A stretch of 64,000 nt of DNA from Oceaniovalibus sp. ACAM 378. GTDB taxonomy: Bacteria; Pseudomonadota; Alphaproteobacteria; Rhodobacterales; Rhodobacteraceae. The position numbers were made by a program, and so were the translations under genes. Under the pieces are notes generated by a model, which saw only the letters and a program-made list of their open reading frames with translations, searched no databases and was not told the DNA's origin. The stretch is taken from the NCBI RefSeq assembly GCF_008085915.1, contig NZ_VSJK01000002.1:186001-250000 (forward strand), given 5' to 3'. This document shows positions 204-36,160 of the stretch, piece by piece (positions within the stretch are counted from its first letter, which is position 1; the number at the start of each line of letters is the position of its first letter).

Positions 204-374
204 CTCTATCGGGTATCCATCTTCGAGTATCTCGATCGGCTAGGCAGGGCCCGGGTGGCGCCCGATGGGCGTGCCACAGGGATGACGGAATTGCCAGCGG
301 TGCGCGGCAACGGCGATGCCGGAGCGCAGCGAAATGCGCCGGTCAATGCCGTCAATTTCACCGGCAAAAGTCGA

Positions 375-4374: not shown

Positions 4375-4579
4375 GGCCAAGCCGCCTTCCGGTCGTTTCA
4401 TCTGCCCCCGGGATCAGAGGCGAAACCCCAAACGAGAAACGCACCAGTGGGCGCAACGCGCTGACTGGTGGCGATCCCGGCTGAGGCTGCGGGACCGGAA
4501 GCGTAAAAACCCCCGGAGTTGCGTCGCGATTTAAAGACCGGGACGCACAGAGTCAAGGCGGCGTGCCACCAACAAGAAA

Positions 4580-11534: not shown

Positions 11535-12302
11535 TCATCGCCGCTCGGCATGGTCCAATCGCTGGCGGGCGATCGCTTCATTCCGGTCGGCCCTCTGCTG
11601 TTCGACAAGCGCGGTCTGAACAAAGTCCAGATGCGATTCCATTGCAGCCCGCGCCGCCGGCCCATCGCGCGCCTGCATCGCCGTGTTGATATCCCGGTGC
11701 TGGTTCAGCAGCGTCTCGCGGGTTGTGTGCTGGCCAAACATGATCTGCCGGTTATACACGACGCCCTCGCGCAGAACCGCATTCATTGCACGCATCATAT
11801 GCAGCATGACCAGATTGTGCCCTGCTTCGATGATGGCGAGGTGGAAATCGGCGTCCAACCCCGCCTCACGAGCCGGATCGGCGGCGGTATGGGCCTGTTC
11901 CATCCGGTGCAATGTGGCAGCGATGACCTTCAGATCCGTGGGCGTGGCCTGCCGTGCGGCCCGTTCGGCGGCCATTCCTTCGATATCGCGACGAAAGGCG
12001 ATATAGTCGAAAACCGCTTCGGTGTGGGTGGCAAACAGCTGCGCAAGTGCCGGCGTGAAGGCCGGACCGATCAGATCGGCAACAAATACGCCCGACCCTG
12101 CCCGGCTGGTCAAAAGCCCGCGCGCCTGAAGCTCGGCCACGGCGTCGCGCAGCGACGGGCGAGATACGCCCATCCGGTCAGCCAGATCCCTTTCGGACGG
12201 CAAACGTTCACCGGGGCGCAGGATGCCCCGAAGAATCAGCAGTTCGATCTGTCGAACAACGGCAGAAGACAGCTTTTCCGGCTGAACCTTGTGAAACGGC
12301 AT
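11535..12302 (-). CDS. FadR-type GntR-family transcriptional regulator
   Basis: This 255-residue regulator has an N-terminal GntR winged helix (about residues 10-75) with LILRGILRPGERLPSERDLA and MGVSRPSLRDAVAELQARGL. An all-helical FCD domain follows (about 90-235), with metal/ligand residues in DADFHLAIIEAGHN and NQHRDINTAM. The N-terminus resembles the PdhR/LldR branch. Those regulate pyruvate, lactate or glycolate use, but no such target is adjacent, so the effector is open. It is convergent with the ATP synthase operon. A dyad just upstream suggests autoregulation. Confidence 0.9.
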   Translation of the reverse strand: MPFHKVQPEKLSSAVVRQIELLILRGILRPGERLPSERDLADRMGVSRPSLRDAVAELQARGLLTSRAGSGVFVADLIGPAFTPALAQLFATHTEAVFDYIAFRRDIEGMAAERAARQATPTDLKVIAATLHRMEQAHTAADPAREAGLDADFHLAIIEAGHNLVMLHMMRAMNAVLREGVVYNRQIMFGQHTTRETLLNQHRDINTAMQARDGPAARAAMESHLDFVQTALVEQQRADRNEAIARQRLDHAERR

Positions 12303-12322
12303 GGGCAGACACCTGTTGAATT

Positions 12323-12339
12323 GGTCAAATGATATGACC
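12323..12339. promoter_or_regulatory. dyad upstream of the GntR gene, candidate operator
   Basis: GGTCA, a 7-base spacer and TGACC form a perfect inverted repeat 21-37 bases upstream of the GntR start codon. The half-site GGTC is like that of FadR-family regulators, although the spacing is wider than the classical FadR/PdhR operators I know. Autoregulation is inferred. Confidence 0.4.
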
Positions 12340-12414
12340 GCTTTCAGTCCCCGCCAAGGTCAATAGGCCAGCCAGCGAAAAAGGCCCGTTAACGAAAATG
12401 ACCAGCCAACGAAA

Positions 12415-12439
12415 AAGGCCGGGCGCGGGGCCCGGCCTT
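12415..12439 (-). terminator. rho-independent terminator of the OmpA lipoprotein gene
   Basis: AAGGCCGGGC pairs with GCCCGGCCTT across a 5-base loop. On the minus strand it is followed by TTTCGTTGG. It lies 19 bases past the stop. A second copy of the flanking phrase GCCA(G/A)CGAAAAAGGCC occurs 36 bases away (12369-12384 and 12405-12420), a short direct repeat. Confidence 0.8.
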
Positions 12440-12457
12440 CGACAGATTGCCGACCGA

Positions 12458-13111
12458 TCAGTTGGTCGGGCGGATCACGATATCGACGCGACGGTTCTGT
12501 GCGCGCGTGGAAGCGGACAGGTTCGACGCGACAGGGCGGTCTTCGCCGTAACCGATGGCGCGAAGGCGTGACGACGAAACCCCATTCGACGCAAGGATCG
12601 CGGTGACCGCCTGTGCCCGACGCTGGGACAGGTCCAGGTTATAGGCGCTGGCACCGGTGTTGTCGGTATGGCCCTGAACTTCGACCACTGAATTGGGATA
12701 GCGGTTCAGGTTGGCAGCCAGCACGCCCAGATCGCCACGCAGCCCGCCCGATACCGAAGCGCTGTCGGTGGCGAACAGGATGTCCTGCGGCATGCGCACG
12801 ATCAGTTCGTTGCCATTGTTCACGACATCGATGGAGCCGTTCGAGAAGTCGCCGCGCAGTTCGGCGGCCTGCTTGTCCAGAACGTTGCCGATGACGGCAC
12901 CACCGGCGGCACCAATCGCGGCACCCAGGGCGGCATTCTTCAGGCGGTCACTGCCGCTTTCGCGGGTTCCGCCCAACACAGCGCCGATGGCGGCACCAGT
13001 CAGGGCACCGGAACGGGTGCGGTTGGGATCACCGGTAACGGGATCGGTACAGGCAGTCAGTCCCAGCAGACCCGCAGATGCGGTCAGCAGGGCGATTTTT
13101 GTGATGGTCAT
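12458..13111 (-). CDS. OmpA-family outer-membrane lipoprotein with glycine zipper
   Basis: The 217-residue precursor starts with a lipoprotein signal (MTITKIALLTASAGLLGLTA then C21, lipobox LTAC). A glycine-zipper region follows (about residues 40-85, GALTGAAIGAVLGGT and GAAIGAAGGAVIGNVLD), then a full OmpA peptidoglycan-binding domain (about 110-217, VVEVQGHTDNTGASAYNLDL, SQRRAQAV, RAQNRRVDIVI). It should tether the outer membrane to peptidoglycan (Pal/YiaD-like). The ATG at 13111 is chosen because it gives the correct signal peptide. It is monocistronic and terminated by a hairpin. Confidence 0.88.
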   Translation of the reverse strand: MTITKIALLTASAGLLGLTACTDPVTGDPNRTRSGALTGAAIGAVLGGTRESGSDRLKNAALGAAIGAAGGAVIGNVLDKQAAELRGDFSNGSIDVVNNGNELIVRMPQDILFATDSASVSGGLRGDLGVLAANLNRYPNSVVEVQGHTDNTGASAYNLDLSQRRAQAVTAILASNGVSSSRLRAIGYGEDRPVASNLSASTRAQNRRVDIVIRPTN

Positions 13112-13250
13112 GTCAGTCCTCGTTCGAAGTTCGGCACATCTCAACGCGTGTCATATGATATGCGGTTCCATGTCGCACCGTAGAAATCGGCCATCGGCGG
13201 AACACCGCCCGCACATCTTTGTGATAGGGCTGGTGCATTCAAGCGACAGG

Positions 13251-14096
13251 TTACAGGGCGGTGAGGGCCGATTCATGGGCCAGCATCGCACGTTTCACCG
13301 GTAGACCCCAATGATAACCGCCCAATTCACCGGATTTGCGCAATGCACGATGACAGGGAATCAGCCAACTGATCGGGTTTCGCCCGACCGCGGTCCCGAC
13401 AGCGCGCACCGCTTTGGGGTTGCCAATGCTGTTTGCGATCTCGCCATAGGTTGTGACATGGCCGGTGGGGATGGTCAGCAACGCCTCCCATACTTTCAAC
13501 TGGAACGGCGCACCGATCAGGAAAAGCGGCGTTTTTTCATTGGTTTGCGATGCTCCGAACGCCGAATTGGCCCAAGGACGCAACCTGTCGGGATCTTCCA
13601 CAAAAGTCGCATCGGGCCAGCGGGCGATAAGATCGTCCATCGCCGCCGCTTCGCCGGTTTCGGCGGCGAAGGCGATGCCGCAAAGACCTTTGTCGGTGCC
13701 CATGACAAGGGCCGGGCCAAAGGGACTGTCGAACCTGCCCCAGAACACGCATAATCCGTCGCCATGCCGGGCATAGCTGCCGGGGCTCATCGCCTCCCAT
13801 GTCACGAAAAGATCGTGCAGGCGCGAGTTTCCGGACAAGCCCACGGCATCGGCGGTTGCCAGGGTGGTAAACCGTTCGCGCAACAAGGTACGGGCATGGC
13901 CCAGCCGCAGATACTGCTGGAATCGCTTTGGCGAAATTCCGACCCAGCGGGAAAAGACCCGCTGAAAATGGGCAGGTGACAGGTTCATCTCGGCGGCGAT
14001 GTCGTCAAGCGTGAGAGTGCGCCCATCGTCGCCGTCAAGCCGGTCGATGGCCCGGCGGATAAGCGGCCAGTAATAGCTCTGTTCGGGATCTGACAT
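13251..14096 (-). CDS. bifunctional AraC-type regulator / methylated-DNA-cysteine methyltransferase
   Basis: The 281-residue protein fuses an AraC-type helix-turn-helix (about residues 27-110, TLDDIAAEMNLSPAHFQRVF and GISPKRFQQYL) to an O6-alkylguanine-DNA alkyltransferase domain (about 115-281). The second domain contains the acceptor cysteine C248 in WLIPCHRALRKSGELGGYHW and the recognition helix YGEIANSIGNPKAVRAVG. It lacks the N-terminal Zn/phosphotriester-sensing domain of E. coli Ada, so it can repair O6-methylguanine but would not sense damage the Ada way. The start at 14096 is preferred over one 15 bases upstream. It is divergent from nth, so two DNA repair genes share an upstream region. 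Confidence 0.9.
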   Translation of the reverse strand: MSDPEQSYYWPLIRRAIDRLDGDDGRTLTLDDIAAEMNLSPAHFQRVFSRWVGISPKRFQQYLRLGHARTLLRERFTTLATADAVGLSGNSRLHDLFVTWEAMSPGSYARHGDGLCVFWGRFDSPFGPALVMGTDKGLCGIAFAAETGEAAAMDDLIARWPDATFVEDPDRLRPWANSAFGASQTNEKTPLFLIGAPFQLKVWEALLTIPTGHVTTYGEIANSIGNPKAVRAVGTAVGRNPISWLIPCHRALRKSGELGGYHWGLPVKRAMLAHESALTAL

Positions 14097-14269
14097 GCGG
14101 CTTCCTTTCATCTGCCTCTGTTTATCCCTTTACGCGTTGCGGTGCGATCCGGAACCTGCGGCTTCGTTGCTATGATCTGCGATGGAAATTCGTGTCACTC
14201 GCCGGGATATTTGCACGCCAGAGGGGCGGGGGGCTTGCCTGCCATATGCCGGCGTTGCATGACAGCGGT

Positions 14270-14914
14270 ATGGCAAAGCAACTGTCCTTTCCGGTGATGT
14301 ACGAGATTTTCGCCCGCTTCCGGTCCGCCGAGCCCGAGCCGAAAGGCGAGCTTGAGCACGTCAATGCCTTTACCCTTGTCGTGGCTGTCGCTCTCAGCGC
14401 GCAGGCAACCGATGCAGGGGTGAACCGCGCGACGCGGGGCTTGTTTGCGGTCGCCGATACGCCCGAAAAAATGCTGGCGCTGGGGATTGATGGCGTTACC
14501 GAATATATCAAGACCATCGGCCTGTTTCGCAACAAGGCCAAGAACGTGATCGCAATGAGCCGTATTCTGGTCGAAGACTTTGGCGGCGTTGTTCCGTCGT
14601 CGCGTGCGGCCCTGCAATCCTTGCCCGGAGTGGGGCGCAAGACCGCGAATGTTGTTCTGAACATGTGGTTCCGGTATCCGGCACAGGCGGTCGACACGCA
14701 TATCTTCCGGCTTGGCAACCGCAGCGGCATCGCGCCGGGAAAGACAGTCGAAATCGTCGAACGCGCGATTGAAGACAATGTTCCCGCCGAATTTCAACAG
14801 CACGCCCATCACTGGATGATCCTGCACGGGCGGTATACATGCGTGGCGCGCAAGCCCAAATGTGGCGCCTGCCTGATCCGCGACCTGTGCGCATACGAGG
14901 AAAAAACGACATGA
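14270..14914 (+). CDS. nth: endonuclease III
   Basis: This 214-residue DNA glycosylase/AP lyase removes oxidised pyrimidines. It shows the helix-hairpin-helix with catalytic lysine (SLPGVGRKTANVVLNMWF), the catalytic aspartate in AVDTHIFRLGNRSG, and the C-terminal [4Fe-4S] cluster CVARKPKCGACLIRDLC (C-x6-C-x2-C-x5-C). The ATG at 14270 gives the normal length. In-frame ATGs at 14246 and 14192 would add 8 or 26 non-conserved residues. Its stop overlaps the start of the PfkB gene (ATGA). Confidence 0.94.
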   Translation: MAKQLSFPVMYEIFARFRSAEPEPKGELEHVNAFTLVVAVALSAQATDAGVNRATRGLFAVADTPEKMLALGIDGVTEYIKTIGLFRNKAKNVIAMSRILVEDFGGVVPSSRAALQSLPGVGRKTANVVLNMWFRYPAQAVDTHIFRLGNRSGIAPGKTVEIVERAIEDNVPAEFQQHAHHWMILHGRYTCVARKPKCGACLIRDLCAYEEKTT

Positions 14915-15906
14915 AGAAATTTCAGGTTGTCGGCATCGGCAACGCAATGGTGGATGTTCTGGCGTCCTGCGATGATGATTTTCTGTCGGACAACGGCATC
15001 GAAAAGGGCATCATGCAGCTGACCGACCGGGAACGTGGTGTCGAGCTGTATTCGCGGATCGGCCCGGCGCGCGAAGTCAGCGGCGGCTCGGCGGCCAATA
15101 CTATCGCGGGAATTGCCCATCTGGGCGGGCGCTCTGCCTATGTCGGCAAGGTGAAAGATGACCAGTTGGGCGCGATCTTTGCCCATGACCTGCGGGCGCA
15201 GGGGGTGGTCTATGACACCGCCATGGCAGAACCGGGGGCCGAGGCCGAAACCGGGCGCTGCATCATCCTTGTGACGCCGGATGGTGAGCGGTCAATGAAC
15301 ACCTATCTGGGCGTGACCGAGTTTTTGGCGCCCTCGGATATCGACGAAGGCCAAGTGGCCGAGGCCGACTGGATCTATCTGGAGGGTTATCGGTTCGATG
15401 GTCCGCAAAGCCACGCGGCCTTTGCCAAGGCAATCGACGCCTGCACCGGGGCGGGGGGCCGCGTTGCCCTGACGCTGAGCGATCCGTTCTGTGTCGAGCG
15501 TCACCGCGATGCCTTTCGCGCAATGATCCGCGATCACGTCGATCTGCTGTTTTGCAACCGGGCCGAGATACTGTCGATGTATCAGACCGATGATTTCGAC
15601 GAGGCGCTGACCCGCGCTGGGTCCGAGGTCGCCATGGTCGCCTGTACCGACAGCGAGAACGGCGCCTATGTTCTGACCGGCGGGCAGCGCGTGCATGTGC
15701 CTGCAACCAAGGTCGATGTCGTCGATGCCACGGGGGCGGGCGATCTGTTTGCCGGTGCGTTTCTTTGGGCACAGGCCGAAGGCATGAACCCCGAGATTTG
15801 CGCAAGGGCAGGCTGTATCGCAGCGGGCGAGGTGATCTCGCACATCGGGGCGCGGCCCGAGACCGACCTGAAAACCCTGTTCGCGAAACACGGCTTGCAC
15901 GCCTGA
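14911..15906 (+). CDS. PfkB-family sugar/adenosine kinase
   Basis: This 331-residue kinase opens KKFQVVGIGNAMVDVLASCD and has the substrate motif SGGSAANTIAGIAHLGGRSA (residues about 51-70). The C-terminal PfkB signature DVVDATGAGDLFAGAFLWA carries the catalytic aspartate. The adenosine-kinase-like subgroup is common in alphaproteobacteria, but the substrate (adenosine, ribose or another sugar) cannot be fixed from motifs alone. Start is by ATGA overlap with nth, implying translational coupling. Confidence 0.87.
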   Translation: MKKFQVVGIGNAMVDVLASCDDDFLSDNGIEKGIMQLTDRERGVELYSRIGPAREVSGGSAANTIAGIAHLGGRSAYVGKVKDDQLGAIFAHDLRAQGVVYDTAMAEPGAEAETGRCIILVTPDGERSMNTYLGVTEFLAPSDIDEGQVAEADWIYLEGYRFDGPQSHAAFAKAIDACTGAGGRVALTLSDPFCVERHRDAFRAMIRDHVDLLFCNRAEILSMYQTDDFDEALTRAGSEVAMVACTDSENGAYVLTGGQRVHVPATKVDVVDATGAGDLFAGAFLWAQAEGMNPEICARAGCIAAGEVISHIGARPETDLKTLFAKHGLHA

Positions 15907-19304: not shown

Positions 19305-20381
19305 ATGGCCGATCTCGATGCCCAGGTCCGCAAAAGTCAGGCGCAGGTCGCCGATACCCAAGCCAAGATCACTGAAATTACCAGCCGGATCGAAACGGCA
19401 CGTCAGAAAATGGCGTCCGGCACAGATGTGACCGTCGAGATCGAGAACGCCACTCTGGACGATGTACATGCCCATACAGAGGCGATGAATGCGAATATCG
19501 CCGAACTGATCATGGGGCTTGATGACGTGACCTCGGGGTTTTCGAAAGACTTCGCTGAAATGCGCGACAAGACCGGTTGGGAAAGCTTCGTCGGCATCTT
19601 TTCCGAAGGCAAATCCGAATCCCTGCGGCAGGAACGGATGCGGACTGCATCGGTTGACGAAAAGTTGCAGGATCTGATCTCCAAGTCCGACATCATCGTG
19701 CGCCTTCTAGAGGGCCAGCTTGCCGTGCTGAACGAACAGAAGACGCGGGTCGAGGTCAACCTGACCGAAACGCTGGACGACCGCGAGTTCACAGTCGGCG
19801 AGCTTGAAGCGCTGCGGGTCGATATTCTGGCCATGGACCCGAAGATCATCGCGCTGGAAAACCGGATCAGCGTCGAACAGGACGCCGCCGCCCGCACCCG
19901 TCTGGAAACTGAACTCGCCGGATTGAACCAGAGCTATAATGAAATGGTGCAGCAGGAACAGGTCAAGCTGGCCAAGTCGCAGACGCTGGAACGCTATATC
20001 GAAAAGGGCAAGACCTGGGTCGATTCGCTGCAAAATCAGGCGGCGACGCAGATGGTCTTGATTAACAAGTTGCAGACCGACACGAAACAGCGTGTCGTAT
20101 TGTATGACGCCCTGACAAAATCGCTGAAGACCGCGCAGCAGCAGGATGTCGCACACCGGATCAACGAGATCGGTGTGCAGACCGATCAGGAGGCGCAGAC
20201 CGCCATGGCGCAGATCGGCGCGGCAACCAACAGCCGGATGGGTGACATGCTGGAGGCGCACGAGGATCATATGGTCTTTGCGCGAAAGGTTCTGGAGCAA
20301 AAGCAAAAGGCCGACGAACGGTTCGCCCGACGCTTTGCCTCGATCGTCGAAAAGCACGACAAGAACCTGTATGGTGAATGA
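19305..20381 (+). CDS. long coiled-coil protein, first gene of the AAA+/DUF1523 locus (TelA-like?)
   Basis: The 358-residue protein is almost entirely helical and highly charged, with long heptad-like stretches (about residues 1-45, 115-240 and 270-350). It has no signal peptide or membrane helix. The layout, with a helical core around GKTWVDSLQNQAATQMVLIN and TDTKQRVVLYDALTKSLKTA, recalls TelA/toxic-anion-resistance proteins, but I could not match a signature and treat that as tentative. The ATG at 19305 is chosen because a GAGGAGAA ribosome-binding site lies 5 bases upstream, covering the codons after an earlier in-frame ATG at 19287. It heads a co-directional run ending at 27089. Confidence 0.75.
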   Translation: MADLDAQVRKSQAQVADTQAKITEITSRIETARQKMASGTDVTVEIENATLDDVHAHTEAMNANIAELIMGLDDVTSGFSKDFAEMRDKTGWESFVGIFSEGKSESLRQERMRTASVDEKLQDLISKSDIIVRLLEGQLAVLNEQKTRVEVNLTETLDDREFTVGELEALRVDILAMDPKIIALENRISVEQDAAARTRLETELAGLNQSYNEMVQQEQVKLAKSQTLERYIEKGKTWVDSLQNQAATQMVLINKLQTDTKQRVVLYDALTKSLKTAQQQDVAHRINEIGVQTDQEAQTAMAQIGAATNSRMGDMLEAHEDHMVFARKVLEQKQKADERFARRFASIVEKHDKNLYGE

Positions 20382-20397
20382 CCTGTGCAGGCGGCGA

Positions 20398-20445
20398 AAT
20401 TTCCTTGAAGTAAGGAAATTGAAAAATTTCTCGCAGGAGAAATTT
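20398..20445. repeat. two adjacent perfect 9-bp hairpins
   Basis: AATTTCCTT (20398-20406) pairs with AAGGAAATT (20412-20420). AAATTTCTC (20424-20432) pairs with GAGAAATTT (20437-20445). The stems are AT-rich in a GC-rich neighbourhood and occupy the 75-base gap between two genes of one apparent operon. Neither is followed by a clear T tract in either direction, so mRNA processing or partial attenuation seems as likely as termination. Confidence 0.7.
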
Positions 20446-20456
20446 GGGGGCCGGCG

Positions 20457-21596
20457 ATGAGCGAGGGCGTGACCGGTGCCGATCTGTCGCGCGATCATGT
20501 CGGGCTGACCGATACATTGGTCGCGCGCCGGTACTTCCGCAAGTTTGAAGCGATCTCGTCGCATCTGGCACGCGTCGCAGCCGCGATGGAGTCCGAGGGT
20601 ATCTTTTCGCGCGGCGAGGTCGAGGTTCTGGGCGATTACGTTCAGCGGATTGCCAATACGTTTCGCGCTCTGGGCATGAAATATCTGATGACCGGGCGTG
20701 ATACCGGCACCTCATTTGGCAGCCTTGCGATGGACCGGACCGAAAGCGGGTTTCCGGTGTTCCGCGAGCTGCTGACCATGGGCAGCGATTTCGCGCAGGC
20801 GGCCGCACATCTTGATTCAACCCCCGACCGGGAAGGGTTGACCGAGCAGATGCTTGGACGGATTCTGCGAGACCTCGAGATTCCGACCCGGCTGCAATTC
20901 GCCATGGCTCAGCGGGTCTATTATGAAACACTGTTGGCACAGTCATTGTTCTGGGCGCAGAACGATCCGCGCGCGATCTGGCTGGGCGGGGTGGAGGGCA
21001 GGCGGCGGTTCTTGCTGCACTGGGCGGTCTATGACACCGAGGTCAACCTGCCGGTCGTCTATCTGATGGAGATCGAGGATTCGGGGCGCGTGTCGCTTCC
21101 CAAGGATGCGGCGCGCTGGCCGGCGGTTCAGGCGCATTTGACGGCTCAGTCGATGGGCGGGCTGAAACTGTTGACTATCGCCAATGGGTTCGACCGGGAT
21201 TTCGACGATCTGCACCCCAAACGGTTGCGCCGCCTGCACATCGGGCCAATGTATTCGCGAGCCTATACCCAGCAGTCCGGGCCAATTCATGAGATTCTGG
21301 AAGAGGCTCATGCACCGGATGAGCAGGACTGGTGTCTGGTCTGGACGACCGAGGAACTGGAGAGCGGACGGGTGGAGCGTGAGTCCAAGGGATGGTTCGG
21401 TTCGGTCGAACGTGAGGTGTTCACGCTGGATCCCTTCGGGACGCGCGGCATAGACACCGGCGCGACACGGACCGACAGATCGATCATTCTGCCGCAGCTC
21501 TTGTTTCAGGTGTTGTCCGAGAAGAATCCGCCGGGGTTTCGGTCGGTGCGCAAATTCGTCGTTTCCGCCAATGGGCGCGTTCTGAGCCACCGATAG
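20457..21596 (+). CDS. conserved-looking protein of unknown function in the AAA+ locus
   Basis: The 379-residue product is soluble-looking, with no signal peptide or membrane segment. The N-terminal half is helical (ARRYFRKFEAISSHLARVAA). The middle holds aromatic-rich strands (WLGGVEGRRRFLLHWAVYDT, VYLMEIEDSGRV). The C-terminal part (about 285-379) includes DWCLVWTTEELESGRVERES and SIILPQLLFQVLSEKNPPGF. I do not recognise the family. It follows the coiled-coil gene by 75 bases and precedes the AAA+ ATPase gene by 63, so a shared role with the ATPase (adaptor or substrate) is the likeliest inference. Confidence 0.75.
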   Translation: MSEGVTGADLSRDHVGLTDTLVARRYFRKFEAISSHLARVAAAMESEGIFSRGEVEVLGDYVQRIANTFRALGMKYLMTGRDTGTSFGSLAMDRTESGFPVFRELLTMGSDFAQAAAHLDSTPDREGLTEQMLGRILRDLEIPTRLQFAMAQRVYYETLLAQSLFWAQNDPRAIWLGGVEGRRRFLLHWAVYDTEVNLPVVYLMEIEDSGRVSLPKDAARWPAVQAHLTAQSMGGLKLLTIANGFDRDFDDLHPKRLRRLHIGPMYSRAYTQQSGPIHEILEEAHAPDEQDWCLVWTTEELESGRVERESKGWFGSVEREVFTLDPFGTRGIDTGATRTDRSIILPQLLFQVLSEKNPPGFRSVRKFVVSANGRVLSHR

Positions 21597-21626
21597 ATCG
21601 GCGCGAGTGTTCGGGCGCAGCGCAGT

Positions 21627-21648
21627 GAGTATTTTTGCAAAGAAGAAA
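21627..21648 (+). repeat. GAGTATTTTTGCAAAGAAGAAA intergenic motif, copy 1
   Basis: One of at least four copies in this window of a motif GAGTATTT-N4/5-AAAGAAGAA (others at 31254-31274 minus, 33206-33226 minus and 60504-60525; a degenerate one at 59583). It lies between the 379-residue gene and the AAA+ ATPase gene, just ahead of an AGGAGG ribosome-binding site. Confidence 0.65.
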
Positions 21649-21659
21649 CAGGAGGTTCT

Positions 21660-23597
21660 GTGAGCCTGTCAGCCGATACAATGGAACTGCGTGAGGCGGA
21701 TATTCGCAAGCACTATGTCGCCGCGCTGGCGATGCTGGCGGGGTTCGACCACATGCCGCGGATCGCCGCCGCGAAGAGGGACGTAAGGACCGATGAGCGT
21801 TCGCCGGGGATCGGCACGCGCCGGCGGTTCCGCTCCACCACGCCCGGGCTGGTGACGCGGTCGACCGCGCGGGCGGAAGGTGTGCGGATCATTGAACGGG
21901 TCGAATCCGTAGGGGGTGATGAGTTGCCCTCGCCCGTGCAGGCGGCGGTATTGCAGGGGTTGCGGCGCGGGCTTGCCATCGCTTTGGCGGTGGGGGAGCA
22001 GTTTGCAGAACGCACCGGGCTGGATGCGTTGAAGCGCGACAATCTGGCGGGCGTGCTCTCAGCGGGAAAATCGGCCGGGTTTTCGGAACTTCTGTCGGCT
22101 GAATCCCTGGTGGTCCTGTCGGTGTTCGGCAATGCGGTGTCGGTTCTTTTGGCCGCCCATGCGGGTGAACTGACGGTCGAGATCGGCGAGGTCGAAGAGG
22201 TGCTGACCGACAACGCGCCGCTGGCCCTGCACGGCGCGCTATGGGAGTTGGATCAGGACATCTCTGCTTTCGGCGTGGAAGACGACGGCCGGGTGGTGGC
22301 GACAGTTCTGGCCTTTGCCGAGGCGCTGATGCGCCGGGTGGAGCAGCGTGCGGCAACGGCGCCGCAAATTGCCGGGTTCACTGGCGCAAGCTGGCGGGTC
22401 GAGGCCGACGATCTGACCATCCACGGATTCACGCCGTCGCGCCGGGGCAAGGGCACGGCCCTGACCATGACGTTCAAACAACCCAACGAGGTGGTGGGCA
22501 ACCACATCGCCAAATATCAGGCGATGAAGCTGTCGAAGATGCTGATGGCTTATGATTTTGACCGGCGGCTGAACCCCTTTGCCGAGCTCGGTGGTTTCAT
22601 CTTTACCTTCATGGGGGACGGCGCGCCGGGCACCGGTAAAACGACGCTGATTCAAATGATGGCGGGGCTGATTTCCGGCTATTGCGAGGTGGCGGGATAT
22701 CCGTTCCGATATCAAAACCTGTCGACCGACAATATCGACAGCTATCAGGGCAAGTCCGGTCAGAACGCCAAGGCTTTCATCACTTCTATCATCGACCCGG
22801 GCGTCATCGGCTTTGGAACCATCGACGACATCGACCAACTGGCGGGAAAGCGCGGTGACCGGCAGTCCAGCGCCGGACAGTTGGAAATCACCGCCGTCCT
22901 GATGGAAAGTTTCGCGGGGGCCAATACTGTGGTGCGCGGCAACTGTACCTTCGGCATGTTCTCGAATTATCCCGAAAACGTCGACGATGCCCTGCGCCAA
23001 AGGGCGGGTGCGCGGTTTCTAGTCGACGGGCCGCAGAGCCGGGACGATTACATCGACATCCTGCATCTGCTGATCGGCAAGAACCACAAAATTCCCCTGG
23101 GCGATCACCAGTTGTTTGCAGCGCAGGAAATCCGGCAGGCGGTCGCTGCGAGTTTCGAAAGCCATGGTCGCCCGAAAGAGGATGGGTTGATTGCGGTCTG
23201 GGACCGGACCGAGAAAGCCCTTGGGCGGCTGGATACTATCGCCAAGCTGGGCAGTTATCTGAAAGCGATACAAGAGGCCGATCATCGTTTTACCGGGCGG
23301 GCGATCAAGAACATCACCGATGCGGTCAAGGTGCGGGCGATGGATTTCGAGCTGCCGGACGAATGGATGGAGAACCCCGACCTGTTCCTGTTCAAAGCCT
23401 ATGACCACAAGGTGGCGATGATCCGCGACATGGCCCGGCCAATTACCGTTGAGATGGTGATTCAGGAAATCAACCGCTACGCCGACAGTGAGTTCCGCTA
23501 TGCCGACAAGTCGGACGAGGTCGCGATTGCCAATATGGTGCGTGACTTTGGCCTGACCGAGATCGCCAAGCGGCGGTATCTGGAGTCGAAGGGATGA
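21660..23597 (+). CDS. AAA+ ATPase, core of the unknown membrane locus
   Basis: The 645-residue protein has an N-terminal helical region of about 240 residues, then a beta-rich linker and a AAA+ module. Walker A is GDGAPGTGKTTLIQMMAG (GAPGTGKT at about 321-328). The Walker B-like strand is GVIGFGTIDDIDQLAGKR (DDID instead of the usual DExD). A sensor/arginine-finger region reads SNYPENVDDALRQRAGARF. The module resembles the classical (FtsH/spastin-like) clade, without a protease domain. Translation starts at GTG 21660, supported by AGGAGG 5 bases upstream. The stop overlaps the start of a 40-residue ORF (ATGA). Partners are probably the adjacent membrane proteins. Confidence 0.85.
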   Translation: MSLSADTMELREADIRKHYVAALAMLAGFDHMPRIAAAKRDVRTDERSPGIGTRRRFRSTTPGLVTRSTARAEGVRIIERVESVGGDELPSPVQAAVLQGLRRGLAIALAVGEQFAERTGLDALKRDNLAGVLSAGKSAGFSELLSAESLVVLSVFGNAVSVLLAAHAGELTVEIGEVEEVLTDNAPLALHGALWELDQDISAFGVEDDGRVVATVLAFAEALMRRVEQRAATAPQIAGFTGASWRVEADDLTIHGFTPSRRGKGTALTMTFKQPNEVVGNHIAKYQAMKLSKMLMAYDFDRRLNPFAELGGFIFTFMGDGAPGTGKTTLIQMMAGLISGYCEVAGYPFRYQNLSTDNIDSYQGKSGQNAKAFITSIIDPGVIGFGTIDDIDQLAGKRGDRQSSAGQLEITAVLMESFAGANTVVRGNCTFGMFSNYPENVDDALRQRAGARFLVDGPQSRDDYIDILHLLIGKNHKIPLGDHQLFAAQEIRQAVAASFESHGRPKEDGLIAVWDRTEKALGRLDTIAKLGSYLKAIQEADHRFTGRAIKNITDAVKVRAMDFELPDEWMENPDLFLFKAYDHKVAMIRDMARPITVEMVIQEINRYADSEFRYADKSDEVAIANMVRDFGLTEIAKRRYLESKG

Positions 23598-23716
23598 GCG
23601 AATGCGCGGTCATGCCGATCGATCCCGTTCTGACGTCTTCGGCTGTGACGGACAGGCTGAGTTCGGACCATATGAGCTTGGGCGGGGGGCGGCGCGACGC
23701 ATGGGTCCAATCCTGA
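23594..23716 (+). CDS. 40-residue coupled micro-ORF behind the AAA+ gene
   Basis: It starts in the ATGA overlap with the ATPase stop, and its TGA at 23714-23716 lies 16 bases inside the next membrane-protein gene. The product (MSECAVMPIDPVLTSSAVTD then RLSSDHMSLGGGRRDAWVQS) is not recognised. It may be a real peptide or simply a translational bridge delivering ribosomes to the next start at 23701. A remnant of a longer gene is also possible. Confidence 0.35.
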   Translation: MSECAVMPIDPVLTSSAVTDRLSSDHMSLGGGRRDAWVQS

Positions 23717-24018
23717 TTTTTGTCGGCACGGTGATCGCCGCCTCTGTGGTGGCGAGCCTTACTGCTGTATCGGCGCTGGCCGAAACCGGCGTTGACACTC
23801 GGCTGGGGCAGTTTCGCGCGACGGTCCTGGGAGTTGCGATCTGTTTCGTTGCCGCCTTCGTCCTGTTTGCCTTGACCGACCCCGACCCTCTATCCTGGCC
23901 TGAGACGACCACCGAATATCTGCGCCGTACCCTTGGGATAACGATATTTGCCGGTTTTATCTGGCTGCCGGTGTTTCTGGGGGTGTTTGCCACACTTGTA
24001 CGGCGGCGGCGGGCATGA
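23701..24018 (+). CDS. small membrane protein of the AAA+ locus (first of three)
   Basis: The 105-residue protein has about three hydrophobic segments: MGPILIFVGTVIAASVVASL, ATVLGVAICFVAAFVLFALT and GITIFAGFIWLPVFLGVFAT. It ends in a basic RRRRA tail. The start at 23701 is inferred, since the frame is open 33 codons further upstream but that stretch is polar and unlike a membrane N-terminus. Its stop overlaps the next start (ATGA). Function is unknown. Confidence 0.65.
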   Translation: MGPILIFVGTVIAASVVASLTAVSALAETGVDTRLGQFRATVLGVAICFVAAFVLFALTDPDPLSWPETTTEYLRRTLGITIFAGFIWLPVFLGVFATLVRRRRA

Positions 24019-24344
24019 CCGGCCTGTTGATCCCTGCGGTTCTTTTGATCCTTGCTGCGGCGGCAATCCCCTTTGCCATGGCGCGGGTATTGCCCGAAGG
24101 TATCGCGGGACTGGTCGTGAATGGTGCGATTTCGGCGCTGGTGCTGACCGGGATGTCTGCGGCCTATTTCCTGTGGGCCTATGGTCGGACCGACACCCGC
24201 GTGGTTGACCTGCTCGGTGCCGCTCCGGGGGCGACGCTGGTGTATTTCCTGCGGCTTGGGGTTCAGGCGGGGCTGATCTGGGCGCCGGTCATGATCCTGA
24301 GCCTGAGTGCGCAACCCAAACGCTGGAAGACAGTACAATGGTAA
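24015..24344 (+). CDS. small membrane protein of the AAA+ locus (second of three)
   Basis: A 109-residue hydrophobic protein with three likely helices (MTGLLIPAVLLILAAAAIPF, NGAISALVLTGMSAAYFLWA, LRLGVQAGLIWAPVMILSLS) and a short basic C-terminus. It starts in an ATGA overlap with its predecessor, and its final 7 bases overlap the next gene. The chain of overlaps argues for coordinated synthesis of the three membrane proteins. No family is recognised. Confidence 0.7.
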   Translation: MTGLLIPAVLLILAAAAIPFAMARVLPEGIAGLVVNGAISALVLTGMSAAYFLWAYGRTDTRVVDLLGAAPGATLVYFLRLGVQAGLIWAPVMILSLSAQPKRWKTVQW

Positions 24345-24742
24345 ATTCCGGCGCCGACGGGTTCTGGACTGGCGGAACGCCACATTTACTGTCGCTTGGG
24401 GCGCGAATTGCGCGGTCGGGAGCGGATCCGGGGCCTGAGATGATCCCGATGATCAGCATTGCAGGGCTGGTGGTGCTGGGCCTGATCCTGGGCATGAATG
24501 CCCTGCGCCGATGGTCATTCTGGCCCCGTCTCGCCGTGATCTTGGTCGTTCTGTCGGTCTGTGGCGCGCTTGCCGCAGTGGGTGCCTATGTGGCCAACGG
24601 GGTGCAGGTGGGGGCGGCGCTGACCGCCGATCCTCTGGGCGGTGCGATCTGGTTCTTGGCGGCAGGGGTGCAACTGGCCCTGCCGGGGTGTATCGTCGCG
24701 GCGGTCGCGTTGTGGTGGCGGCAGAGGGGCAGGGCGGCGTGA
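24338..24742 (+). CDS. small membrane protein of the AAA+ locus (third of three)
   Basis: The 134-residue protein has a polar N-terminus of about 34 residues followed by three helices (MIPMISIAGLVVLGLILGMN, LAVILVVLSVCGALAAVGAY, LAAGVQLALPGCIVAAVALW) and an Arg-rich end. The start at 24338 is favoured by the 7-base overlap with the previous gene. The ATG at 24440, directly ahead of the first helix, is an alternative. Function is unknown. Confidence 0.65.
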   Translation: MVNSGADGFWTGGTPHLLSLGARIARSGADPGPEMIPMISIAGLVVLGLILGMNALRRWSFWPRLAVILVVLSVCGALAAVGAYVANGVQVGAALTADPLGGAIWFLAAGVQLALPGCIVAAVALWWRQRGRAA

Positions 24743-24797
24743 TACAGGTTCGGCAATCACAGGCGAGAGCGGTGCATCGGGTCCGGAAGGGAAACGC

Positions 24798-26162
24798 ATG
24801 AGACGGCTGATCGAAAAGGGGCTGATGTTCGGCGGGCTGGTGTCTGTGGATTCACCCGCTTTGGTCGAACGCTATAACCGCGCGTTAAGGCAACTGACCG
24901 GCAAAACCACAGGGCTGGATTCCTTTCATATTGATCTGTCGGGCTATTCCCCCGAGATCGGCGATGAGTTGGGCGATATCCGGTATCTGAACGCCAATGG
25001 TGTGAACCGGCAGTTCATTTTGCTGTCCAGCGAACAGAAACACGCGCCGCTGCTGAACATGTCGTTTTCCACCAGTCGCCCGATCCTTGTTCAGTTCATC
25101 GAAGCCAACGAAAGCGAGCTTTTTGCCCTGACCGCCCGGGACGCCGTGGCGGGTGAACTGGCCAATTCCGTGTTCGACGTGTCGCGCCCCGCCCGCCTGT
25201 TCGACATACGCCGCATCACGATCGAGGCGGACACCACCGGCTCTCATGTCGCTGATGCCCGCAAGCTGGCCGACAAGGTGCAAGAGTTCCGCACGCGGCA
25301 GGATGCCTGGTGGGACGACGTGCTGATTGCTGAAATGATCGGTCTGGCGAAACACACCGGCGACGTGACGCGCCACCCTGTCGCGCTGAAACAGATGGTG
25401 TTCGAGCACGGCAATTTCTGGACCTCGCATTTCGGTGGTTCCTATGTCTTTCACAAGGTCAAACGGCCCTTTGTGCTGACCGCCTCGCCCGACGCATTCA
25501 CCAGCGACGATGGCGTCAGGGTGCCGGCTCTGGGGCTGGACCAGCCCAATGCCATCGCCCGCGCGCTAGAGGAGAACGGGCTGGTTGAACCCATCGTTAA
25601 GGCGCGCAATGTGGATGCCGCCGCGATCCTGCGCCAGAAAATGGACTTTATCCTGATCGATGCCGCCGCGACGCTGGAAATCGACATGGCGGATGCCACG
25701 CGCAGCGATCTGCGTGCCGTGGCCCGGCGGCTGGGTGCGGCGCTGCCCGATGCGTTCACTGGGCTTGGCGATCTGTTGCGCTGGGTCGAGGGCGGCGGCA
25801 CCTGGCCACGCATCACATCAGAGCATCCGGCGTATTTCTATACCTTCCGCGCCGCACCCGGCGCCGACCGCGATCTGGTGAACATGCTGCTGGCCGAACT
25901 GGCGCCACTGGATGTGCGGCAGTTGTTCATCTGCCACAAGGAACTGTTCTATCGGTTGTATGCCACATGGTCGGACGCGCGGCGGCAATATGTGGCGGAT
26001 TTTCTGGAACGCGAGTATCAGGTCGACAAGGCAGGAACGCGCGCCGCTCTGTTTGGCGACGAACCGGGGATGGAGGATGTTGTGCCCGCCGCAACCCTCG
26101 GGGCAAAGCCGCGCGTCGGTCAGATCCGCCGCGTTGGCCCCTGGGGCTCAGCAAGGAGCTAA
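24798..26162 (+). CDS. DUF6638-like protein of the AAA+ locus
   Basis: This 454-residue protein starts MRRLIEKGLMFGGLVSVDSP and contains LTGKTTGLDSFHIDLSGYSP, GDELGDIRYLNANGVNRQFI and DVRQLFICHKELFYRLYATW. I recall proteins with this N-terminus as the DUF6638 family of Rhodobacterales, but the number is from memory. It has no signal peptide or strong membrane helix. The ATG at 24798 is chosen over a long upstream extension because of the GGAAGG ribosome-binding site. The extension would also overlap the preceding membrane-protein gene. It lies between membrane-protein genes, so it is presumably a cytosolic partner of the AAA+ ATPase. Confidence 0.78.
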   Translation: MRRLIEKGLMFGGLVSVDSPALVERYNRALRQLTGKTTGLDSFHIDLSGYSPEIGDELGDIRYLNANGVNRQFILLSSEQKHAPLLNMSFSTSRPILVQFIEANESELFALTARDAVAGELANSVFDVSRPARLFDIRRITIEADTTGSHVADARKLADKVQEFRTRQDAWWDDVLIAEMIGLAKHTGDVTRHPVALKQMVFEHGNFWTSHFGGSYVFHKVKRPFVLTASPDAFTSDDGVRVPALGLDQPNAIARALEENGLVEPIVKARNVDAAAILRQKMDFILIDAAATLEIDMADATRSDLRAVARRLGAALPDAFTGLGDLLRWVEGGGTWPRITSEHPAYFYTFRAAPGADRDLVNMLLAELAPLDVRQLFICHKELFYRLYATWSDARRQYVADFLEREYQVDKAGTRAALFGDEPGMEDVVPAATLGAKPRVGQIRRVGPWGSARS

Positions 26163-26165
26163 CTC

Positions 26166-26435
26166 ATGGTGTTTGCAATCGCACGATTGGGGCTGATGGG
26201 GTTCGTGATCCTGTCGATCATCTATGTTCTTGTCTCGATCTATTCCCGGTCGGTCCGGCGTGAGCGACTTGAAAATCGGTGGGAAGCCGAAGAGATCGGC
26301 GGCGACCGCGAGGAATATGTAAAGAACGGTCTGGCGGAATATGACAGTTCGGTCCGTCGCAAATTGATTCTGGGTGTCTATGTAGTACCTGTGATCGTGG
26401 TCGGCACGCTGATCTATGTGATTAATTTCTGGTAA
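26166..26435 (+). CDS. two-helix membrane protein of the AAA+ locus
   Basis: The 89-residue protein has an N-terminal helix (ARLGLMGFVILSIIYVLVSI), a charged cytoplasmic loop of about 40 residues (SVRRERLENRWEAEEIGGDR) and a C-terminal helix (LILGVYVVPVIVVGTLIYVI). Its AAGGAG ribosome-binding site lies inside the end of the DUF6638-like gene, 3 bases away. It probably sits next to the DUF1523 protein in the membrane. Function is unknown. Confidence 0.75.
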   Translation: MVFAIARLGLMGFVILSIIYVLVSIYSRSVRRERLENRWEAEEIGGDREEYVKNGLAEYDSSVRRKLILGVYVVPVIVVGTLIYVINFW

Positions 26436-26444
26436 GGATTCGAA

Positions 26445-27089
26445 ATGCGCTATGTGAAATGGGCCTTGGTGATCGTGTTGATTTCGGTCGTCGGCGGGTT
26501 CCTGCATTACACCTTGCCGCAGCAGGATATCGTTCGCGTTGTCGGCACCGAAGTACGGCGCGTCGATGTGAACGAGAACAGCATTTTCTGGGCGCAGACC
26601 GATGTGGGCAACAATCCGACGACGGTAAACCGCGATGTGCGGTTCATCGAAACGATCCGCGACAATGGCAAACCCATGGTGTACCGGAACGAGGATACGG
26701 GGTGGGGCTGGCCGCCGTATTTCAAGTTGAATTCATCCAACCTTCAGGCGACGACAAGCGATCTGGTCTCGACCCGCAACGATCCGCAGTGGGTGGTGGT
26801 GCGCCACTATGGCTGGCGCAACGAATTCCTGTCGATCTTTCCCAACGCTGTCGGCGTCCGCGCGGTGGATGGCCCGGATGTGCGGCTGATCCCTTGGCTG
26901 AACATCATTCTGCTGGTGCTGCTGTTGGTGTTGATCCTGACAATCCGCGCCATGTGGCGCCAGTTTCGCCAGCGCACGGTCGATCCGATGGTGCAGGATG
27001 CGGGTGAAACCTGGGATCGGGTTGATGCCTATGCCGACGAAAAACGTGGGCGCTTCGGTCGGTGGCTGGACAGCTGGAAGAAGAAATAG
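26445..27089 (+). CDS. DUF1523 family membrane protein
   Basis: The 214-residue protein has an N-terminal membrane anchor (RYVKWALVIVLISVVGGFLH). An extracytoplasmic beta-rich domain follows, with QDIVRVVGTEVRRVDVNENS and TGWGWPPYFKLNSSNLQATT. A second helix near the C-terminus (IILLVLLLVLILTIRAMWRQ) and a charged cytoplasmic tail complete it. These features match the DUF1523 family, uncharacterised and mostly alphaproteobacterial. It ends the AAA+ locus 9 bases after the two-helix gene. Confidence 0.82.
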   Translation: MRYVKWALVIVLISVVGGFLHYTLPQQDIVRVVGTEVRRVDVNENSIFWAQTDVGNNPTTVNRDVRFIETIRDNGKPMVYRNEDTGWGWPPYFKLNSSNLQATTSDLVSTRNDPQWVVVRHYGWRNEFLSIFPNAVGVRAVDGPDVRLIPWLNIILLVLLLVLILTIRAMWRQFRQRTVDPMVQDAGETWDRVDAYADEKRGRFGRWLDSWKKK

Positions 27090-36074: not shown

Positions 36075-36160
36075 TGGTGCCCAGGAGAGGACTCGAACCT
36101 CCACACCGTTGCCAGTACTAGCACCTGAAGCTAGCGCGTCTACCATTCCGCCACCTGGGC
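36075..36160 (-). tRNA. tRNA-Leu (anticodon CAG)
   Basis: The minus strand folds into a class II tRNA. Acceptor GCCCAGG pairs with CCTGGGC. The D-region is GGCGGAATGGTAGACGC. The anticodon arm is CTAGC-TTCAGGT-GCTAG, giving CAG. A long variable arm (TACTGGCAACGGTG) and T-arm GGAGGTTCGAGTCCTC follow, with an encoded 3' CCA. The long variable arm and CAG anticodon identify leucine. The anticodon lies at 36125-36127. Confidence 0.95.

Follow-up and report, generated by a model that had tools for sequence, protein, structure and literature searches.

Classical AAA+ unfoldases (VCP-like/Cdc48, Vps4, Fidgetin-like and TRIP13 proteins) carry a Walker A motif, an aromatic pore loop, a sensor asparagine and arginines in the second region of homology. 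In the ESCRT-III/Vps4 and PspA systems, the proposed logic is that of a helical protein and an AAA+ ATPase near a membrane. A similar pairing is proposed for the locus described here: nine plus-strand open reading frames (ORFs), lettered A to I in order, that occupy positions 19305-27089 of a 64,000-nt window of Oceaniovalibus sp. ACAM 378 (contig NZ_VSJK01000002.1; coordinates of the locus refer to the whole window). Four of these genes, A (a helical protein), B, C (the AAA+ ATPase) and G (a DUF6638 protein), form a conserved core with a changeable membrane partner, which looks like a new ATP-powered machine whose substrate would be a long protein of helical build, possibly at the cell membrane.

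In PMC8281802 the MIM is tied to Vps4, and the logic proposed here likewise ties a C-terminal part of the helical protein to the ATPase. That paper leaves undecided if Vipp1 has the help of an ATPase and if PspF takes the Vps4-like part for PspA. The phage shock protein (PSP) survey PMC11237479 reports PspA/Snf7 neighbourhoods in bacteria that include AAA+ ATPases; its main text contains neither DUF1523 nor DUF2333. Unlike the classical unfoldases, C has an N-terminus of about 300 amino acids that matched no Pfam family, carries Asp390 instead of a glutamate and stands in a four-gene setting with A, B and DUF6638; unlike in the ESCRT-III and PspA systems, A has no significant sequence similarity to PspA. 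In ESCRT-III/Vps4 or PspA systems, no proteins equivalent to B and G are known to us. DUF6638 (PF20343), DUF1523 (PF07509) and DUF2333 (PF10095), the families of G, of I and of the partner in Rhizobiaceae-type loci, are names without function. No paper naming DUF6638 or linking DUF6638 with DUF1523 was found among those searched, and the available text on DUF2333 places its gene in a cluster linked to hcp3 and the type VI secretion system (T6SS), where no function is given for it.

Inheritance of the A-B-C-G core

Co-occurrence was surveyed in 80 genomes of the window's own family (Rhodobacteraceae), one per genus. A and C gave strong matches in the same 37 genomes, with one extra weak match each (G355 for A, G318 for C). 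G was present in those 37 genomes, in G332 (near a contig edge, without A or C) and, in part, in G355; the co-occurrence of B rests on the comparison of loci. The first-pass annotation had proposed a co-inherited AAA+ system without assigned function, and this proposal is supported by the 37 shared genomes and by the gene order kept in distant loci. Its caution that the genes might rarely co-occur elsewhere was answered by the opposite outcome, with the core genes nearly always together. At the G355 locus (L144, G355:C173), fragments of A and G adjoin H and I, and neither B nor C gave a match; because only these fragments remain, the locus was read as an eroding copy.

In a scan of one genome per species, C had at least 558 relatives, and the 80 best (73-84% identity) were kept; counts out of 71 refer to the kept loci with full flanks. 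A, B, C, G, H and I occurred in the same order and on the same strand in 69 of the 71, so the co-directional arrangement, which lies across 19305-27089 as first annotated, is not due to chance. One of the two exceptions held C only, the other A, B and C only. The small membrane genes D, E and F are variable, since tblastn recognised them in 3, 21 and 2 of the 71 loci, respectively, and the C-G spacing ranged from 34 to 2104 bases across 77 loci. Tree distances (72 loci) correlated at r 0.59-0.75 among A, B, C and G and at r 0.36-0.57 between these genes and the adjacent I (DUF1523), values that include shared species history; the r of I may also be depressed because I evolves faster.

DUF1523 was found in 70 of the 80 family genomes, namely all 37 with the core and, of the remaining 43, another 33, among which are G332 and G355. 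Approximately 12 kb was fetched from each of 13 genomes without A or C, chosen for having DUF1523: A, B, C and G were absent from the fetched sequence in all 13, H was present in 8 and E in 3. Outside this set, the G347 and G318 loci likewise have I but none of the four core genes. A shared aldehyde dehydrogenase flank was seen at 48/71 core-bearing and 8/13 core-less loci. Because this flank, H and I occur both with and without the core, the core looks like a presence/absence block at an apparent fixed site, at which H and I can also occur by themselves.

Across the phylum, 26 of 398 genomes had DUF6638, and 12 of these 26 lie outside the window's own family. A was found in 30 of 393, among them all 26 with G. 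Nine distant loci were compared: seven from the 12 outside-family genomes (chosen for G) and two from plasmid-collection records (chosen for C). A-B-C-G was intact and ordered in 9/9, and H was not recognised in these loci. The membrane gene after G differs, being DUF1523 in the window and in L181 and L182, and DUF2333 in Rhizobiaceae-type loci (L183-L187 and L153). The conserved unit is therefore A-B-C-G, smaller than nine genes, and the first-pass view of all nine as a single machine is not supported: D, E and F are variable, H is unrecognised at a distance and DUF1523 persists without the core.

In the G211 locus, the A-B-C-G-DUF1523 proteins are 42, 37, 53, 34 and 32% identical to those of the window. 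L181 belongs to another class, and its 68-72% identity in A and C points to transfer. The plasmid collection held ten records with C, five of which were looked at. In Sinorhizobium meliloti Ak57, A-B-C are followed by an endonuclease-like gene, a transposase and then G and DUF2333. Vibrio parahaemolyticus has A-B-C-G (identity A 33%, C 38%, B 26%; DUF6638 match for G) and then mfd, and the annotation of V. vulnificus shows this layout too. Homology of the core was confirmed for one Vibrio and the Sinorhizobium record; otherwise it is given by annotation.

Two side observations concern these records. The endonuclease-like gene between C and G of S. meliloti Ak57 belongs to DUF559, and the transposase beside it is that of ISRm16 (L152, 11106-12851). 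A ChvI-bound fragment recorded for SMc02733 of S. meliloti was left out of account, since SMc02733 could not be tied to a core gene. In two Vibrio records, each about 0.93 Mb long (L150 and L151, both 12283-15744), mfd (transcription-repair coupling factor) lies directly after G on the same strand. The family labelled f160 is probably Rhizobiaceae, because it has neighbours such as thymidine kinase in common with S. meliloti.

The patchy presence of the core (37/80 genera) and the transfer suggested by the L181 copy would agree with an anti-phage or mobile-element defence system. This role is nonetheless very improbable, as the shared aldehyde dehydrogenase flank suggests a fixed site and the sequences are strongly conserved. 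The PADLOC-DB 2023 models gave no specific match, only weak ones (best TRIP13, E 1.5e-5). There was likewise no match in the phage collection, and none was confirmed in viral contigs.

The ATPase C and proteins A, B and G

Single C sequences matched classical AAA proteins (i-AAA protease, Fidgetin-like and Vps4), and Vibrio C matched VCP-like ATPases best, with its YQG aligned to the KYYG pore loop and its DDID to DEID. A search with the C profile, in contrast, gave nothing at 1e-4. The TRIP13 match from PADLOC covers residues 321-504. In an alignment of 92 C orthologues, the following residues were invariant (92/92): the pore loop Y362-Q363-G364, Walker A residues G319-G321 and P323-T328 (position 322 being the sole exception), the sensor-1 residue N436, and R446, R448 and R452 of the second region of homology. 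The roles of the Walker, pore-loop, sensor and second-region residues are those generally known for AAA+ proteins.

The Walker B motif reads Asp389-Asp390 in 92/92, aligned with the DE of VCP-like proteins, so that Asp390 stands in place of Glu. Of the features of the classical AAA+ family (PF00004), the Pfam domain, Walker A, the sensor Asn and the arginines were found and the Walker B Asp-Glu pair was not. The aspartate was treated as a variant because the family is defined by its domain, and C was accordingly treated as a classical AAA+ ATPase with a variant Walker B, of predicted activity. The invariance of the pore loop speaks for substrate threading. To our knowledge, aspartate at the catalytic position of an AAA+ Walker B is unusual in nature; a literature search for Glu-to-Asp cases at this position found none. 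With Asp390, C may be a slow enzyme, or may work normally through another residue.

Four phylum genomes were found to hold a diverged A without G. C was not found in them by a search that scored 5/5 genomes with the system, and profiles of B, C and G gave no match in the four A-only loci, where A adjoins a DUF2333 gene (Pfam match in 3/4) and thymidine kinase (Pfam match in 2). The four A-only proteins were aligned with 91 normal A proteins, and an invariant set of 54 residues was defined as those kept in ten divergent A proteins. Window 271-300 of A holds 11 of the 54 invariant residues, the most of any window, and all four A-only proteins lack 20-21 of its positions (the gap spans 270-291 in three, and was placed by the aligner at about 281-302 in G611). 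The loss of 271-300 is the clearest change in the A-only proteins. Because this stretch is mostly missing in A where C is missing, we infer that residues ~270-300 are where A contacts C, or else B or G.

No credible match of A was found in a profile search against PDB sequences, and A was compared twice with TelA and PspA by profile-profile alignment. In the first comparison, each frame was the longest open frame in mid-locus, which may be wrong (23/32 TelA and 17/28 PspA sequences kept); in the second, frames were taken from match coordinates (31/32 TelA rows and 24 PspA rows of 29 listed; L127 was without protein). As a PspA, A scored a probability of 16.8 and then, with checked frames, 7.5. 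As a TelA, it scored 0.15 in an earlier comparison, 1.2 in the first of these two and, with checked frames, 13.0 over 142 columns. None of these values is significant. Controls gave 4.8 for TelA against PspA, and 0.6 (PspA) and 0.3 (TelA) for reversed A.

These values bear on two alternatives. The locus could be a true bacterial relative of ESCRT-III/Vps4, with A as a very diverged PspA/ESCRT-III protein and C as its Vps4. This would fit the excess of the PspA values over reversed A, the match of C to Vps4 among other classical AAA proteins, and the PspA/Snf7 neighbourhoods cited above. It is quite improbable, however, as both probabilities are far under significance and TelA and PspA, which belong to different Pfam families, reach 4.8 against each other. 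PspA_IM30 (PF04012) was not among the Pfam matches of the A proteins (own and relatives), nor did the own genome have any PF04012 match. No MIT domain was listed for C among Pfam families up to E 1, at which a diverged MIT could escape. ESCRT-III/Vps4 membership is not claimed here, because A does not resemble PspA significantly at the profile level.

The other alternative, a chemical-stress module related to TelA/Ter with A as a very distant TelA, has only a slight probability. The toxic anion resistance family TelA (PF05816) is helical and similar in size to A, a likeness judged by eye, and the last TelA value far exceeds that of reversed A. Against it, neither this value nor the two lower ones are significant, TelA was not among the Pfam matches of the A proteins (own and relatives), no Ter family was found at the locus by Pfam, and the own genome has its TelA elsewhere. 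That separate gene (L123, G000:C7:37992-38978) was recorded in a search in which TelA was present in 13/13 own-family genomes.

Structure models were obtained for B (predicted local distance difference test, pLDDT, 83.3; predicted template modelling score, pTM, 0.82) and G (pLDDT 80.3, pTM 0.73). Foldseek against the PDB gave no match at E 0.001 or better for either (best for B, E 0.5), and VIA structure comparison brought weak matches for B and next to none for G, which is not proof of new folds. B residues 179-342 weakly resemble tunnelling-fold (T-fold) proteins (best Z 5.9, 92 residues, root mean square deviation 3.8). No similarity was detected between B and G, and their profiles gave nothing credible against PDB sequences.

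Gene layout of the locus

Table 1. Genes of the locus in window coordinates.
Gene	Position	Strand	Description
A	19305..20381	+	358 aa (amino acids), soluble, helical, probably coiled-coil; core
B	20457..21596	+	379 aa; N-terminal half helical, C-terminal half beta-rich; core
C	21660..23597	+	645-aa classical AAA+ ATPase (variant Walker B, activity predicted), GTG start; core
D	23701..24018	+	Three-helix membrane protein; start probably here, corrected from 23602; variable accessory
E	24015..24344	+	Three-helix membrane protein; accessory; also without core in 3/13 loci
F	24338..24742	+	Three-helix membrane protein; rare accessory; start uncertain
G	24798..26162	+	DUF6638 (PF20343), 454 aa; core
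H	26166..26435	+	89-aa two-helix membrane protein; accompanies DUF1523
I	26445..27089	+	DUF1523 (PF07509); helices 3-21 and 149-167 on either side of a central domain; candidate membrane partner, also found without the core

Membrane helices were predicted by hydropathy. Pfam matches above cut-off were obtained for C (AAA, E 8e-11, 42.9 bits, cut-off 21.2), G (E 5e-205, 681.8 bits, cut-off 27) and I (E 1e-72, 243.4 bits, cut-off 23), and for none of A, B, D, E, F or H; no NCBIfam family exceeded its cut-off for the nine genes.

The start of D is probably 23701, because three of its four relatives (L035, L057 and L059) begin near residue 31-37 of the originally listed ORF; the fourth (L036) has a longer ORF. 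The first-pass annotation had placed a micro-ORF at 23594, which is unsupported, as it is absent in L035, where the D-like ORF begins directly after C. Given the later start of D and the missing micro-ORF, the stop/start overlap at 23594-23597 is doubtful. The overlap at 24015-24018 agrees with the relatives of E, and that at 24338-24344 is present in the sequence but depends on the less certain start of F. Gaps under 10 bases, which had been described for several of the genes, were found between G and H (3 bases) and H and I (9 bases), not between A and B (75), B and C (63) or F and G (55). The A-B gap ranges from -4 to 797 bases in relatives. Scans for promoters and terminators gave no more than expected by chance.

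Further observations were made in the gaps and elsewhere in the window. The A-B gap contains two perfect hairpins next to each other (20398-20445; folding z -1.77), AATTTCCTT...AAGGAAATT and AAATTTCTC...GAGAAATTT; their exact patterns occurred among 238 loci only in L001 and L131, both of which are the window itself. The element GAGTATTTT (at 21627) was seen in the B-C gap of 11/79 loci, out of 29 occurrences across these loci on both strands, and so is concentrated in this gap; it is possibly an intergenic repeat of the family. Rfam matches on the minus strand of the window were an ffh sRNA and a tRNA (4434-4485 and 36078-36160).

A proposed remodelling machine and its possible membrane partner

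With linked inheritance of the core, conserved AAA motifs and an A stretch that is missing together with C, we tentatively favour, at somewhat less than an even chance, the following proposal: A-B-C-G is one ATP-driven machine that remodels helical A, probably near the inner membrane, disassembling A as Vps4 does ESCRT-III. C would form a classical AAA+ ring, probably hexameric, as its motifs and their invariance suggest, and would grip and thread a polypeptide by the Tyr-Gln-Gly pore loop. The substrate would be A, engaged through the invariant stretch ~270-300, as the absence of this stretch without C suggests. B and G could serve as adaptors or scaffolds. Gene position suggests that the cycle takes place at the inner membrane or close to it, next to DUF1523 or, in Rhizobiaceae-type loci, to DUF2333. 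Disassembly of A would then reset a membrane-apposed or cytoskeleton-like structure, as Vps4 resets ESCRT-III.

A more specific version is unlikely as a whole. It takes the locus as a proteobacterial membrane-remodelling system of independent origin, separate from ESCRT-III/Vps4, in which C would disassemble A polymers via their C-terminal stretch, DUF6638 and B would be obligate, DUF1523 and DUF2333 would be interchangeable docks and Asp would replace the catalytic Glu.

Several points weigh against the proposed machine at the membrane. Sampling of C was narrow, with 80 of the 92 aligned orthologues coming from the close-relative scan, and the tree correlations carry the limits given above. 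The A-only genomes belong to one family, three of them to one genus, and may represent a single event. Their A proteins are diverged throughout and also weak at 301-330, so that the lost stretch is not the sole change, and A of G611 misses 44 further positions within 151-240. The profile comparisons of A with PspA and TelA likewise show no significant similarity. The membrane link in particular may be indirect: hydropathy predicts no membrane helix in A, B or G and one weak hydrophobic stretch in C, DUF1523 is present in family genomes without A and C, neither DUF1523 nor DUF2333 was recognised after G in L154, and mfd directly follows G in Vibrio. The membrane-bound character given to the locus by the first-pass annotation is plausible from the position of DUF1523 or DUF2333 after G in 8/9 distant loci, and is not borne out by A, B and G themselves. 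Envelope stress or membrane remodelling may be its role.

The lack of membrane helices in A, B and G and the position of mfd, which does not encode a membrane protein, after G in Vibrio, together with the TRIP13 match as the best PADLOC match of C and the separability of DUF1523 from the core, would suit a soluble chaperone or assembly machine, in which C is cytosolic and remodels B or G, or else a client protein of the host (TRIP13/Pch2- or MoxR-like), A is a scaffold and the membrane proteins are mere neighbours. This alternative is rather unlikely: two different membrane families follow G, one per locus type (Rhodobacteraceae- and Rhizobiaceae-type), and the PADLOC match lies within the AAA domain common to classical AAA proteins.

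If A-B-C-G does remodel A, an independent pair of helical protein and AAA+ ATPase would be a useful comparison for the Vipp1/PspA question. Among natural AAA+ enzymes, one with an invariant Asp at the catalytic position of Walker B would be unusual, and the A stretch missing where C is missing offers a short target for binding tests. The function-less families DUF6638, DUF1523 and DUF2333, together with A and B, gain one shared context and a testable hypothesis.

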